DNA of 64,000 nt from Candidatus Chryseopegocella kryptomonas. GTDB lineage: Bacteria; Bacteroidota; Ignavibacteria; Kryptoniales; Kryptoniaceae. Shown one piece after another: positions 42,893 to 48,089 of this stretch (positions are counted from its first letter, which is position 1; each line of letters starts with the position of its first letter). Location: assembly GCF_001536065.1 (NCBI RefSeq), contig NZ_CZVW01000008.1:1-64000 (forward strand), written 5' to 3'. Under the pieces are notes generated by a model that saw only the letters and a list, made by a program, of their open reading frames with translations, made no database searches and was not told the origin of the DNA. Made by a program: the position numbers and the translations under genes.

Positions 42893-43011
42893 CTATAATT
42901 TTTTCAAAGGAAAATTTAAGCAGTGGTTGAGAGTTTTAAAAATTAACCCACCTCACTTAATCTCTGCATTCGTTCCATAGAGAGAAAAACGAGAAAGAAG
43001 GCAAGTAAAAC

Positions 43012-43040
43012 TTGACTTTTAAATTAGAAAGTTTTAAATT
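43012..43040 (+). promoter_or_regulatory. Possible sigma-70-type promoter of the heme-copper oxidase operon
   Basis: TTGACT at 43012-43017 and TAAATT at 43035-43040 are separated by 17 bp. The site lies about 140 bp before the subunit II start in an otherwise gene-free 291-bp gap. The -10 match is weak. Confidence 0.35.
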
Positions 43041-43183
43041 AGGATAGATTTTATCTTAATTATTGTGACCTTGGCAAAAAATAAAAGGTAAAGTCCTTCC
43101 AACTGCACCTTTCAAAAATTCGCCCTCTTGTAAGGTTTAATTTGAAAAAACGCATTTACTAAAAATTAAAACGGAGGTCAATT

Positions 43184-43792
43184 ATGGCTCCGATAAATGC
43201 TGTTGCGGTTGCAATTTTTATATTTTTTGCCCTTCTTATCTTTGGGGTTTACGCCTTTTTTATCAGCTCAACAAGAAAGCCGGCGGTTGGAGAGGATTAT
43301 TATAAATCTGTTGCGAAGTTGCGTGCCCCGTTTTTTGTAATTTTATTGCTTCTTTTAATTGCAGGCTTAGTATTAACTCTTCCCAAAATTCCCTACCCTT
43401 CAAAAGGTAAATTTCCAGATGCGGTTGTTTATGTGGCAGGTAAACAATTTAACTTTGCTCTTGACACACAACCGATAGAAAGCGAAGAAAGATGGAAAGA
43501 AAGAGCCGAAGCTGAACCGGTGCAGGTTCCCGCTGGAAAATGGATTGAGTTTAGAGTCACAAGTTTGGATGTAAATCACGGTTTCAGCTTGTATGATGAA
43601 AATGGGAAATTGCTCGGGCAAACTCAAGCTATGCCCGGTTATGTAAATCGTCTTTTCATAAAATTTGATAAGCCAGGATTTTATACCGCATATTGTATGG
43701 AATTGTGCGGAAATTCACACCACGCAATGAAAGGTGTGATTGAAGTCGTTGAAGAAGGGACATTTGGAGCAAAAATTTTAAACCAACAATAA
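43184..43792 (+). CDS. Heme-copper oxidase subunit II with CuA site
   Basis: The 202-aa protein has two membrane helices (about residues 5-27 and 49-66) and a periplasmic cupredoxin domain. CuA ligands are visible: His132, Cys171, Glu173, Cys175, His179 and Met182 ('CMELCGNSHHAM'). It accepts electrons from cytochrome c and passes them to subunit I. GGAGG lies 8 nt before the ATG. The spacing of ligands matches B-family (ba3-like) enzymes. It is first in an operon with subunit I, Sco, a heme-porin and a diheme cytochrome. Confidence 0.93.
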   Translation: MAPINAVAVAIFIFFALLIFGVYAFFISSTRKPAVGEDYYKSVAKLRAPFFVILLLLLIAGLVLTLPKIPYPSKGKFPDAVVYVAGKQFNFALDTQPIESEERWKERAEAEPVQVPAGKWIEFRVTSLDVNHGFSLYDENGKLLGQTQAMPGYVNRLFIKFDKPGFYTAYCMELCGNSHHAMKGVIEVVEEGTFGAKILNQQ

Positions 43793-43807: not shown

Positions 43808-45268
43808 ATGGCGGAAATAGCAATAAAAGCGGAAGCGGTTGAGATAGAAGCAAAAGTCAAAAAATTAACTCTGGTGTGGACTGGTTTAACTTTTATTCTG
43901 TTCCCAATTCTTGGGCTTCTTGGTTTTCTTATGCGACTTGTTCAAGGAAATGTCTTTCCAATGTTTCCACCCGAATGGTTTTATTCAATTTTAACACTTC
44001 ACGGGGTTGGAATGGTTGGTTTATGGTTTGTTGAAGGTATGATTGCAGTTATATATCTTCTTTCAAAATATGTTAAGCCAAGCGCTGGCGTTTCGTGGTT
44101 TTCCTTTACTTTCACACTTATTGGGGTTGCGTTGATTATAATTTCAACAATTGCTGGCAAGTTCGGTGCTGGTTGGTATTTTCTTTATCCATTGCCTTAT
44201 AAATCAGCGGAAATATGGCCAAATTGGGCGACAGATTTATATTTAATCGGTTTAGGAGTTCTCGGAATAGCGTGGACTGTTTGGGTCATTGATGTGTTAA
44301 GAGCAATTGCAAAAAAATATACCTTAAATCAAGCCCTTGCATGGCATTATCTTGCTGGAAAAACTGAGCCGGAACTTCCTCCGATTATTTTGATTGTAAC
44401 CGTTACATGCATTGGTGCTATAACAGGTTTTCTTGCAGCTGTTGCTTTATTGCTATTGTTTCTCTTTGATCGTGTTTCTGGGACGCCTGCGGACCCGCTT
44501 CTTATGAAAAATCTCGTCTTCTATTTCGGTCATGTACTCGTTAATATAACAATGTATCTTGGCGTTGCGATTTTGTATGAGACACTTCCTCAATACACTC
44601 AAAAACCTTGGAAAACGAATAAACTTGTCGCATTCGCTTGGAATACTGTTTTATTCCTTGTGCTTTTTGCTTACTTCCACCATCTTTATATGGATTTTGT
44701 TCAGCCAAAAGCTTTTCAGATAATCGGTCAATTTGCTTCATACTTTATTTCTGTCCCAGCTGCCGTTGTCACAATCTTCAGCGCTCTTGCAATGATTTAC
44801 AAAACAAAAGTTAATTGGACGCTCGGTTCATCGCTTATATTCCTTGGGACAATGGGATGGGCTGTTGGAGGCGTCGCAGCTGTGATTGATTCATCAATCG
44901 CAGTTAATTTCAGATTTCACAATACTTTGTGGGTTCCAGCTCATTTTCATACTTATTTCTTGATGGGAGTTGTTTTGATGATACTTGGTTTCATTTACCA
45001 TTTTTCACAACTGCATTCAAACATTCCCGATAATTCAAAACTTGCAAAATTTACAGTCTGGTTAATTTTAATCGGTGGATATGGATTTTTAAGCATGTTT
45101 TACACGGGCGGTGCTTTATTCGTTCCAAGAAGATACGCTCTTTATCCACCTGCGCTTTCTTCGGGAACAACACTTGCGCAAATTAGCATCGTCTTTGTCA
45201 GCATCTTAACAATTGGATTTTTACTCTACCTAATTCAAACAATAAGAAGATGGGCAAGGTCATTTTAA
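43808..45268 (+). CDS. Heme-copper oxidase superfamily subunit I (B-family-like), lacking the active-site Tyr
   Basis: The 486-aa, roughly 12-helix protein has all metal ligands: His65 and His381 for the low-spin heme, His379 for the high-spin heme, and His242, His291 and His292 for CuB. In oxygen reductases such as ba3 the CuB His is followed four residues later by a cross-linked Tyr (HPxVY). Here the motif is His-Val-Leu-Val-Asn, with Asn246. That residue is essential for O2 reduction and is typically absent in NO reductases of this superfamily. It may therefore be a CuA-containing NO reductase or an oxidase that takes Tyr from elsewhere. Confidence 0.9.
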   Translation: MAEIAIKAEAVEIEAKVKKLTLVWTGLTFILFPILGLLGFLMRLVQGNVFPMFPPEWFYSILTLHGVGMVGLWFVEGMIAVIYLLSKYVKPSAGVSWFSFTFTLIGVALIIISTIAGKFGAGWYFLYPLPYKSAEIWPNWATDLYLIGLGVLGIAWTVWVIDVLRAIAKKYTLNQALAWHYLAGKTEPELPPIILIVTVTCIGAITGFLAAVALLLLFLFDRVSGTPADPLLMKNLVFYFGHVLVNITMYLGVAILYETLPQYTQKPWKTNKLVAFAWNTVLFLVLFAYFHHLYMDFVQPKAFQIIGQFASYFISVPAAVVTIFSALAMIYKTKVNWTLGSSLIFLGTMGWAVGGVAAVIDSSIAVNFRFHNTLWVPAHFHTYFLMGVVLMILGFIYHFSQLHSNIPDNSKLAKFTVWLILIGGYGFLSMFYTGGALFVPRRYALYPPALSSGTTLAQISIVFVSILTIGFLLYLIQTIRRWARSF

Positions 45269-46062
45269 CAATCATAGCGCTGGGGCATATCGCCCTGGCG
45301 CAAAATTTTATCTCACAAAAAAGCGATACATTATTCCCAGTTGAATCAAAATACATCTACAAAAGCATAGACGATGTTAAAATCATAACTTCGGATAATA
45401 ATCTCACATCGCTTTCAAATCTTTGGAATAAAAAGCCATTTCTTCTTACACTTATCTTTTCAAGATGTGCGGGGATTTGCTCGCCTCTTATCTCATCTTT
45501 GAAGTTTTCAATTGAAAAAATTACGGGAAATGAGAGAGAAAAAAATTTTTATATCGTCGTTTTAAGTTTTGATACAGCAGATACGCCAGAGGATATGGAC
45601 GCCTTTAAAAAGGACCTTAATTTGTCTGAAAGGAACGACTGGATTTTCGGAATTTTTGCAGATAAAGAGAAGATAAAAAAATTTACAGATGAACTCGGGT
45701 TCTGGTTTAACTGGGTTGACTCAATCGGACAATATGATCATCCAGGGATTGTCGTTGGGATAAGAGATGGTAAAATCGTGCGAATTCTTGTAGGCGGGGA
45801 GATAACCGTTGTCAAACTTCGTGAAGTAATTGACGAGATAAAAGGTAACTTTGTCCCGTTTTATGAAATTCAAAAAAATGTCGCATTTAGATGTTTGAAT
45901 TACGACCCGGAAACAGGCAAAATAAAAATTGGCATCGGAACATTGATAATGTTTATCCCAGCGTTTTTCACATTTTTCATCACATTCACAATTTTTATTT
46001 TTTCAGGCAAAATCCATAAACAAAACCAAAAATCAAAAACAAAACAGGTGATACAAAAATGA
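45250..46062 (+). CDS. SCO1/SenC/PrrC-type copper chaperone
   Basis: The 270-aa protein has an N-terminal signal/anchor ('ILTIIALGHIALAQ'), a thioredoxin-like Sco domain with Cys73-x3-Cys77 ('CAGIC') and the copper-binding His in 'YDHPGIV', and a C-terminal membrane helix. Sco proteins deliver copper to CuA. It overlaps the end of the subunit I gene by 19 nt and the start of the next gene by 4 nt, consistent with assembly of the enzyme encoded upstream. Confidence 0.9.
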   Translation: MGKVILTIIALGHIALAQNFISQKSDTLFPVESKYIYKSIDDVKIITSDNNLTSLSNLWNKKPFLLTLIFSRCAGICSPLISSLKFSIEKITGNEREKNFYIVVLSFDTADTPEDMDAFKKDLNLSERNDWIFGIFADKEKIKKFTDELGFWFNWVDSIGQYDHPGIVVGIRDGKIVRILVGGEITVVKLREVIDEIKGNFVPFYEIQKNVAFRCLNYDPETGKIKIGIGTLIMFIPAFFTFFITFTIFIFSGKIHKQNQKSKTKQVIQK

Positions 46063-47252
46063 GGGAAAAATTCTTTAAGGCATTTACACTGCTTTTTGCC
46101 GTTATTTCATTAACTAGCTATGTTTATTCAATTCCGCTTTTTGCGAGGAAGTATAATCGTTCTTGTTTTACCTGCCACACAACGCCACCGATGCTGAATG
46201 AATTCGGTCGTAGATTTCAGTCAAATGGTTATCAGCTCCCTGGGACAGTTGAATCAACTCCGATATGGATGTCAAATCAACTCCCATTTGCAGCTATGCT
46301 TCACAGCACGTTTACATGGACAAAAGAAGAGATGGGAACGGAGAAGAAATCAACTTTTACTTTTGCAAGGACAGGGGCTGATATTTTCACAGCAGGAACA
46401 TTAGGCAAGCATCTATCTTACTTCGCTGCTGTTGTAGTTGACCCAGCAGAAGGCGGTGGGTATGAAGCTGCTGTTGAAGTCGCACATGTAATTTACAACA
46501 ATATCTTGCCGATGAGCAATCTTAATTTAAAATTTGGTTCATTTCGCCTTGACCTTCCTTATCCTGTTAATCTTGCGTTAAGTGAAGCTGGTTATCTTGT
46601 TTATGAATATGCTTCTGAAGTTAAAGCAAATGGACAGGTTGAAGCTGAGTTTTCACTTGCAGAGCCACAGTTAGGCGTCTCGGCTTATGGATTTTTACCG
46701 CAGGTTCTTGATGGATTAAGATATGAAATTGCCCTTGTAAATGGGACGAATGTGAATGAAGACATTGATAACACGCCTGATTTATATTTCAGAGTCAATC
46801 AAAGCATATGGATAAACAATGCTCCGTTTAGAGCGGGAATACTTTATTATCTTGGCACGATGAAAGGTTCTCAACAGGAAAATAAATTCAATCGTTTTGG
46901 CTTTGATGCTGAGGTTTATGACCCGTGGACGAAAAAAGTAAATGTATTTTTCCAGTATCTCACAGCAACAGATAAAATTGGAGATGAAGAGAGAAAAATG
47001 AACGGCGGTTTCATTGGTGCAAATGTCTTTATACTTCCTGAAAAAGTCGCTGGCTTTACAAGATATGACTTTATGAAGGTTGGAGATGAAAAAACGAATC
47101 AAATTACAATTGGATTAAGATATCATTTCGCACCAAATGTATTTCTCACAGGTGAATACAGCTGGATGAAACAAGATACAAAATCCGAAATGGGAATGCC
47201 TATGACTATGAAAATGCAAATGTTTATGTTGATGACGCATTTTCTTTTCTAA
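46059..47252 (+). CDS. Outer-membrane beta-barrel with one N-terminal c-type heme site
   Basis: The 397-aa protein has a signal peptide (about residues 1-24), a single heme-binding motif C36-FTC39-H40 in 'NRSCFTCHTTPPMLNEF', and then roughly 330 residues of alternating strands typical of a porin, ending in Phe. A single-polypeptide heme-porin could bring electrons or substrates across the outer membrane. I cannot name an established family. It sits between Sco and a diheme cytochrome c in the respiratory operon. Confidence 0.72.
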   Translation: MREKFFKAFTLLFAVISLTSYVYSIPLFARKYNRSCFTCHTTPPMLNEFGRRFQSNGYQLPGTVESTPIWMSNQLPFAAMLHSTFTWTKEEMGTEKKSTFTFARTGADIFTAGTLGKHLSYFAAVVVDPAEGGGYEAAVEVAHVIYNNILPMSNLNLKFGSFRLDLPYPVNLALSEAGYLVYEYASEVKANGQVEAEFSLAEPQLGVSAYGFLPQVLDGLRYEIALVNGTNVNEDIDNTPDLYFRVNQSIWINNAPFRAGILYYLGTMKGSQQENKFNRFGFDAEVYDPWTKKVNVFFQYLTATDKIGDEERKMNGGFIGANVFILPEKVAGFTRYDFMKVGDEKTNQITIGLRYHFAPNVFLTGEYSWMKQDTKSEMGMPMTMKMQMFMLMTHFLF

Positions 47253-47291: not shown

Positions 47292-48089
47292 ATGAAGGCG
47301 AAGATATTAGCAACAATTGCTTGCATTGGGCTTTTTATATATGGTTTTACAGGAATTGATCAACCAAGCAATCCGCCGAAAGAAGTTCTTGAACACGGTA
47401 AAAAGGTTTTTAATTATGTCTGTGCACCGTGCCATGGCAAAGATGGCAAAGGAGACGGCGTCGTAAGCTCAACTATATTCGTAAAGCCAAGGGATTTTAC
47501 ATCTGGTATATTCAAGTTCAGATCCACCGAAAGCGGAAATCTTCCAACGGATGCTGATCTTTATGAATCAATTTCGCTTGGTTTCCACAATACTGCTATG
47601 CCAAGTTTTTCTCAATTAACACCGGAGGATAGATATGCGCTTGTTGAATACATAAAGACATTTTCAGAGAGATTTTCAAATCCGAAAGAATATCCGTTAA
47701 ATGTTGTGATGCCAACTGGAGCAATTCCACTTTCACCCGAAAGTATAGCGAAAGGAAGAGAAATTTATCTGAGGATGAAATGCTGGGAATGTCACGGCGT
47801 TAGCGGAAAAGGGGATGGACCAGCAGCGCAACGGGGCTTTAAAGATGACTGGGGAAACAAAATTTTGATCCCAGACCTGACAAATCCAAATGAAGTCAAG
47901 CGTGCATCAACAGTTGAAGATATTTATCTTGTCTTCACAACGGGATTAAATGGTTCTCCAATGCCATCTTATAAAGATGTTTTAACGGATGAAGAAAGGT
48001 GGCATCTTGCAAATTATATTTACGCATTGATTCACGGGATTGCGCTTTACGATGGAAAGACGATTGAAGAATTGAAAAGCGAGCAATGA
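47292..48089 (+). CDS. Diheme cytochrome c
   Basis: The 265-aa secreted protein has a signal or anchor segment and two cytochrome c domains with heme motifs 'CAPCHGKDGKGDG' and 'CWECHGVSGKGDG'. Distal Met candidates are in 'NTAMPSF' and 'GSPMPSY'. GGAGG precedes the ATG. It is the likely direct electron donor to the CuA subunit encoded at the start of the operon. It ends just before a strong bidirectional hairpin. Confidence 0.93.
   Translation: MKAKILATIACIGLFIYGFTGIDQPSNPPKEVLEHGKKVFNYVCAPCHGKDGKGDGVVSSTIFVKPRDFTSGIFKFRSTESGNLPTDADLYESISLGFHNTAMPSFSQLTPEDRYALVEYIKTFSERFSNPKEYPLNVVMPTGAIPLSPESIAKGREIYLRMKCWECHGVSGKGDGPAAQRGFKDDWGNKILIPDLTNPNEVKRASTVEDIYLVFTTGLNGSPMPSYKDVLTDEERWHLANYIYALIHGIALYDGKTIEELKSEQ

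Follow-up and report, generated by a model that had tools for sequence, protein, structure and literature searches.

The window, i.e., the whole stretch of 64,000 nucleotides that was analysed, comes from a hot-spring bacterium, Candidatus Kryptonia, and carries genes for the two subunits of a haem-copper enzyme, followed by genes for an SCO/SenC-like protein and for secreted proteins with haem c motifs. The features of the locus are as follows:

43011..43041, + strand: conserved upstream element CTTGACTTTTAAATTAGAAAGTTTTAAATTA, 31 bp, with two TTTTAAATTA copies about 15 bp apart
43184..43792, + strand: norS-like subunit II, a CuA cupredoxin of 202 aa (Pfam COX2 2.6e-9, CoxB 3.8e-25)
43808..45268, + strand: norY-like haem-copper subunit I, ATG start, 486 aa, six metal-binding His, 12 predicted transmembrane helices
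44531..44545, + strand: codons H242-V-L-V-N246 within norY, the first CuB His and the Asn substituting the active-site Tyr
45250..46062, + strand: SCO/SenC-like protein with CxxxC at residues 73-77, overlapping the norY end
46059..47252, + strand: secreted beta-barrel-like protein with one N-terminal haem c motif (CFTCH), overlapping the SCO gene
47292..48089, + strand: secreted dihaem cytochrome c with two CxxCH motifs (CAPCH, CWECH; Pfam Cytochrom_C 1.2e-23)

The subunit I reading frame matches Pfam COX1 with 198 bits, and all six metal-binding histidines are present, as the first-pass annotation had stated: H65 and H381 are the ligands of the low-spin haem, H379 is that of the high-spin haem, and H242, H291, and H292 are those of CuB. 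The same annotation had placed an asparagine where O2 reductases have their active-site tyrosine, and this holds, i.e., in the local sequence FGH242-V-L-V-N246 the cross-linked Tyr is replaced by Asn246, which aligns to Tyr237 of the Thermus thermophilus ba3 oxidase both in a profile alignment to solved structures and in a separate MAFFT alignment. Since Asn is also present in two congeners, with subunits I 91% and 86% identical to that of the window, and occupies the aligned column in 63/64 proteins of the window subclade and in 4/4 of the sister group, Asn246 is an inherited change and no sequencing error. The sole subclade exception, a homologue from an Acidobacteriota genome (L095:7001-8431), has Tyr at that position. 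This member of the sNOR-like clade also lacks CuB ligands, with Gln for H242 and Asn for H291, and is possibly a non-catalytic or sensing derivative; an adjoining gene encodes a protein related to the haem-bearing barrel protein of the window. A further congener norY (L005/L036, genome G002) carries a single in-frame TGA at codon 165, where the window has AGA (Arg165); the stop is either an artefact of the assembly or a nonsense mutation that arose recently.

In cbb3 oxidases (C family), the tyrosine sits on helix VII, six residues ahead of the CuB-binding HH pair. The corresponding column 285 holds V, I, L, A, or F and never Tyr, with V285 in the window protein, so that a cbb3-type helix-VII Tyr, raised by the first-pass annotation as a possible substitute, is ruled out by the alignment. 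The nearby Tyr289 is often substituted, with Phe in 12 of the 64 subclade proteins. The structure model of subunit I consists of 12 long helices with a mean pLDDT of 89.8 and low confidence around residues 290-300, and its fold matches that of haem-copper oxidases. Three K-path residues of ba3 are clearly replaced in the window protein (Tyr237 by Asn246, Tyr244 by Val253, and Ser309 by Ala318). Complete loss of the path would be too strong a statement, because Tyr248 is kept as Tyr257, and the positions of Thr312 and Thr315 are occupied by Thr322 and Ser325, respectively. The replacements would fit the published prediction that sNOR has no proton channel (PMC8756737).

Subunit II retains every CuA ligand, as had been claimed, namely H132 and the residues of the motif CMELCGNSHHAM, C171, E173, C175, H179, and M182, and hydropathy predicts two N-terminal transmembrane helices. 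The combination of a 12-helix subunit I with a two-helix subunit II matches the shorter type II Bacillus enzyme described in PMC3475470. The SCO/SenC-like protein is probably the copper insertion factor for CuA/CuB. It gave no Pfam match at 0.001; a profile made from it matches the annotated SCO family protein adjoining NorY of Ruegeria pomeroyi (4e-14) and recovers the gene that follows norY at almost every locus among the best 80 of the 467 described below. The barrel-like protein, with its single CxxCH at residue 36, has a weak OMP_b-brl match and no confident family, and its gene is an operon member in the genus, being present in the congener operons L004, L006, and L038. The dihaem cytochrome c gene is likewise found in L038, and its product is a candidate electron donor to CuA. 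The 31-bp upstream element is near-identical in four Kryptonia species with diverged flanks, its core pattern has one exact occurrence in the whole genome, and a search for the repeat near nosZ and elsewhere in the genome returned a sole other match, a poor one with 3 mismatches. Judging by this conservation, the element is probably the promoter/operator of the operon.

A scan of genome contigs yielded 467 loci with relatives of the window subunit I. The best 80 of these 467 come from at least 11 phyla, among them Acidobacteriota, Bacteroidota, Ignavibacteriota, Calditrichota, Planctomycetota, Pseudomonadota, Myxococcota, Bdellovibrionota, Spirochaetota, Actinomycetota, and Methylomirabilota, and in nearly all of the 80 the genes for subunit II, subunit I, and SCO follow one another in this order. 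On plasmids, more than 30% identity was found only in Thermomicrobium roseum, R. pomeroyi, and Parasedimentitalea. R. pomeroyi was formerly named Silicibacter pomeroyi, and Silicibacter is among the published sNOR carriers, for which Asn is given as the residue at the Tyr position (PMC8756737 Table A4). To sample nitrifier NorY, 399 genomes were drawn from the order to which a Burkholderiales genome belongs, and those carrying ammonia monooxygenase were searched with the family alignment. Two amoA-bearing genomes (G367 and G127) matched strongly, with E values of 3e-130 and 4e-119, and their NorY proteins have HxxxN, a CuA subunit II encoded upstream, and SenC and a membrane protein encoded downstream. 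The senC/SCO gene lies directly 3' of the window norY, as it does in both nitrifiers and in the published norSY-senC arrangement (PMC6967387), e.g., norS-norY-senC in Nitrosococcus (PMC3772326).

In an unrooted maximum-likelihood tree with A-family, B-family, and eNOR proteins, the HxxxN proteins form a single clade (100/99) apart from these three groups, and all 34 sampled sNOR-like proteins fall inside it. The clade takes in R. pomeroyi, T. roseum, the two amoA-bearing genomes, and the window clade. NorY of R. pomeroyi and the two nitrifiers make up a tight clade (100/100), and the window protein, 36-37% identical to them, lies in a sister subclade (99/95). The first-pass annotation had suggested checking the placement among B-family oxidases and NO reductases derived from them; the protein groups with sNOR and apart from the oxidases, while a B-family origin is neither shown nor excluded because the tree is unrooted. 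At one locus, an sNOR-like operon is accompanied by another HxxxN subunit I (L076:7680-9173, - strand), which is highly divergent, has its own CuA subunit II, and branches at the clade base.

The neighbouring genes of the relatives provide independent context evidence across the wider subclade on whether sNOR acts on NO or O2. Within the window subclade, nirS adjoins the operon in three loci (L054, directly after the SCO gene, L072, and L084) and nosR in two (L051 and L072). A formate/nitrite transporter gene lies within the fetched stretch in 13/80 loci (again the best 80 of 467), often directly after SCO, and such a gene also accompanies each of the R. pomeroyi and T. roseum homologues.

With regard to the additional oxidase and the nitrite reductase that the first-pass annotation had brought up, the former exists: the host genome encodes a separate intact A-family oxidase with HPEVY. 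The genome also contains a complete clade II nosZ cluster (G000:C15:33001-50000, L149), which is led by an Rrf2 regulator and includes genes for a glutamate-synthase-like oxidoreductase, Rieske, cytochrome b, and multihaem c proteins. For nitrite reductases, nirK was found neither in the 78.5%-complete host genome nor in five congeners at 93-98% completeness, and the host genome, at the same 78.5%, has no convincing nirS, the PF02239 matches in the genus being weak propeller fragments. The PF02335 matches were rejected as NrfA, being weak multihaem fragments. No other NOR was found in the host genome at this completeness. Since NirK was not found and the D1 and NrfA matches are weak fragments, the host probably imports NO. 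Of seven genus genomes searched, five have the sNOR operon, five have nosZ, and four have both. Among 294 genomes belonging to the class, 11/16 of those with NorY carry nosZ, vs 101/278 of the others (Fisher p=0.011, uncorrected for kinship), and the association is weaker when nosZ and NorY in the same genome are counted once per genus (p=0.09).

We consider it likely that the operon encodes a NorSY-type (sNOR), cytochrome-c-fed NO reductase that makes N2O, which NosZ then removes. The reading of the first-pass annotation, in which the enzyme is a NO reductase of the CuA type and not an ordinary oxidase, is the one best supported by homology, architecture, operon order, and neighbours, and what it had left unnamed is the known family, sNOR. 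The window enzyme combines HxxxN and six His with a complete CuA; Asn at the Tyr position is the published signature of sNOR/CuANOR (PMC8756737 Table A4; PMC3475470), and the biochemically characterised CuANOR of Bacillus azotoformans, which has Asn for Tyr, reduces NO (PMC3475470). The single clade, the operon order, the nirS, nosR, and transporter neighbours, the host's own A-family oxidase, and the nos cluster argue in the same direction. Against it stand the argument for an oxidase role in Nitrosomonas europaea, the low identity to classical NorY, the failure to find a nitrite reductase in the incomplete genome, and the modest association per genus. In the literature searched, we found no report of NO reductase activity of purified sNOR.

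In the proposed mechanism, the CuA of subunit II would accept electrons from a cytochrome c, either the periplasmic dihaem protein or a different one, and hand them via the low-spin haem to the site formed by the high-spin haem and CuB in subunit I. There, two NO would be converted to N2O. With Asn in place of the oxidase Tyr, this site would have no Tyr-His cross-link and no fourth electron/proton donor for O2 splitting. Copper would be loaded by the SCO protein, proton pumping would be absent, and the N2O would be further reduced by NosZ encoded elsewhere in the genome. As no nitrite reductase was found, the NO would be supplied by neighbours or chemistry.

Enzymes of the sNOR type are routinely labelled cytochrome oxidases, a practice that conceals a source of greenhouse gas. 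The warning of the first-pass annotation against an automatic cytochrome c oxidase label proved justified: in T. roseum and R. pomeroyi, the label given to the homologue is 'cbb3-type cytochrome c oxidase subunit I'. When Kryptonia was described in 2016, N2O reductase was reported to be encoded, and no other component of denitrification (PMC4737851). An sNOR would add the step preceding N2O reductase and correct the reported metabolism of the host, which would not produce NO itself and could plausibly carry it all the way to N2. This capacity would be consistent with a host that lives on what partial denitrifiers in the same habitat release.

The closest known systems include the NorS-NorY enzyme (sNOR), accompanied by SenC and orf1, of ammonia-oxidizing bacteria and of Ruegeria/Silicibacter pomeroyi, and the window enzyme appears to be a member of this known kind in the broad sense, placed in a separate subclade. 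After the SCO gene, the window has the haem-bearing barrel protein and the dihaem cytochrome c, where classical sNOR has orf1. It is unlikely, though deserving of serious attention, that the enzyme belongs instead to a different published NOR class, nNOR for instance, or to a sister class that has yet to be named, either of which would differ from the sNOR reading in the class name only. The separation of the window subclade from classical NorY and the identity of 36-37% speak for such a class. On the other hand, the window shares with classical sNOR the Asn for Tyr, the six His, a CuA subunit II of similar size, the gene order, and the common clade, and the mechanism would in either case be much alike. 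The class gNOR has Asp, not Asn, at the Tyr position (PMC8756737), which does not agree with Asn246.

Somewhat less probable is an enzyme for scarce O2, either a high-affinity O2 reductase or a reductase of both O2 and NO, working without the classical Tyr, in which Tyr250 might donate a proton or electron. The sNOR transcripts of N. europaea rise under O2 limitation, and the role of a high-affinity terminal oxidase was proposed (PMC6967387); the same study also cites indirect evidence of NO reduction in Nitrococcus (PMC6967387). Tyr250, one helical turn below Asn246, is invariant in 68/68 sNOR-like proteins, and the position has no Tyr in the A-family, B-family, and eNOR sequences, the oxidases having Leu, Met, or Ile, which would favour an O2 reductase. 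A particular form of this idea, that the catalytic Tyr has shifted one helical turn along helix VI to Tyr250 with Asn246 relaying, and that the clade reduces O2, alone or with NO, has in our view a slim chance. However, the HxxxY Tyr is present in 19/19 A- and B-family oxidases in the alignment, and three eNOR proteins have Gln there; the host already owns an A-family oxidase; nirS, nosR, and nitrite-transporter genes adjoin the relatives; and the characterised Asn-bearing enzyme reduces NO (PMC3475470). Tyr250 is a residue directly accessible to experiment. In the divergent second subunit I of locus L076, a Tyr is found one residue earlier than Tyr250.

An assignment to bNOR (the qCuANOR of Bacillus, CbaA type) instead of sNOR is very doubtful. 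The bNOR of B. azotoformans, for which NO reductase activity was measured, has Asn for Tyr, CuA in subunit II, and a linked SenC (SCO) gene in common with the window (PMC3475470). Its subunit I, however, has about 568 aa and 13 helices and its subunit II one helix, compared with 486 aa and 12 helices and with two helices in the window, and it is described with an extra small peptide subunit, the membrane peptide CbaC, whose gene lies upstream (PMC3475470). The tree, built from A-family, B-family, eNOR, and sNOR-like proteins, groups the window with nitrifier and Ruegeria NorY. An ordinary cytochrome c oxidase, suggested by the Pfam COX1 match, a sub-threshold CtaD match, and the annotation of homologues as oxidases, is hardly credible, as the active-site Tyr is missing in essentially the whole clade, the CtaD score is 114.7 bits vs a cut-off of 670.75, and the tree position contradicts it.

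The sNOR reading also sets the window apart from more distant haem-copper enzymes. With the B-family ba3 oxidase of T. thermophilus it shares the fold, the His ligands, and CuA at about 27% identity. The cNOR and qNOR enzymes have Glu at the site and a haem c or quinol subunit, whereas the window has Asn246 and a CuA subunit II, so it does not belong with them. The eNOR enzymes are haem-copper NO reductases with a subunit II that have likewise lost the Tyr; they differ in having Gln in its place (HGAQQ) and group with B-family oxidases, apart from the window clade. Subunits I of the eNOR type with HGAQQ were found on plasmids of T. thermophilus (L139) and T. roseum (L140), both annotated as cbb3-type oxidases, and the Thermus gene is followed by genes for an Rrf2 regulator and a DUF542 (ScdA-like) protein.
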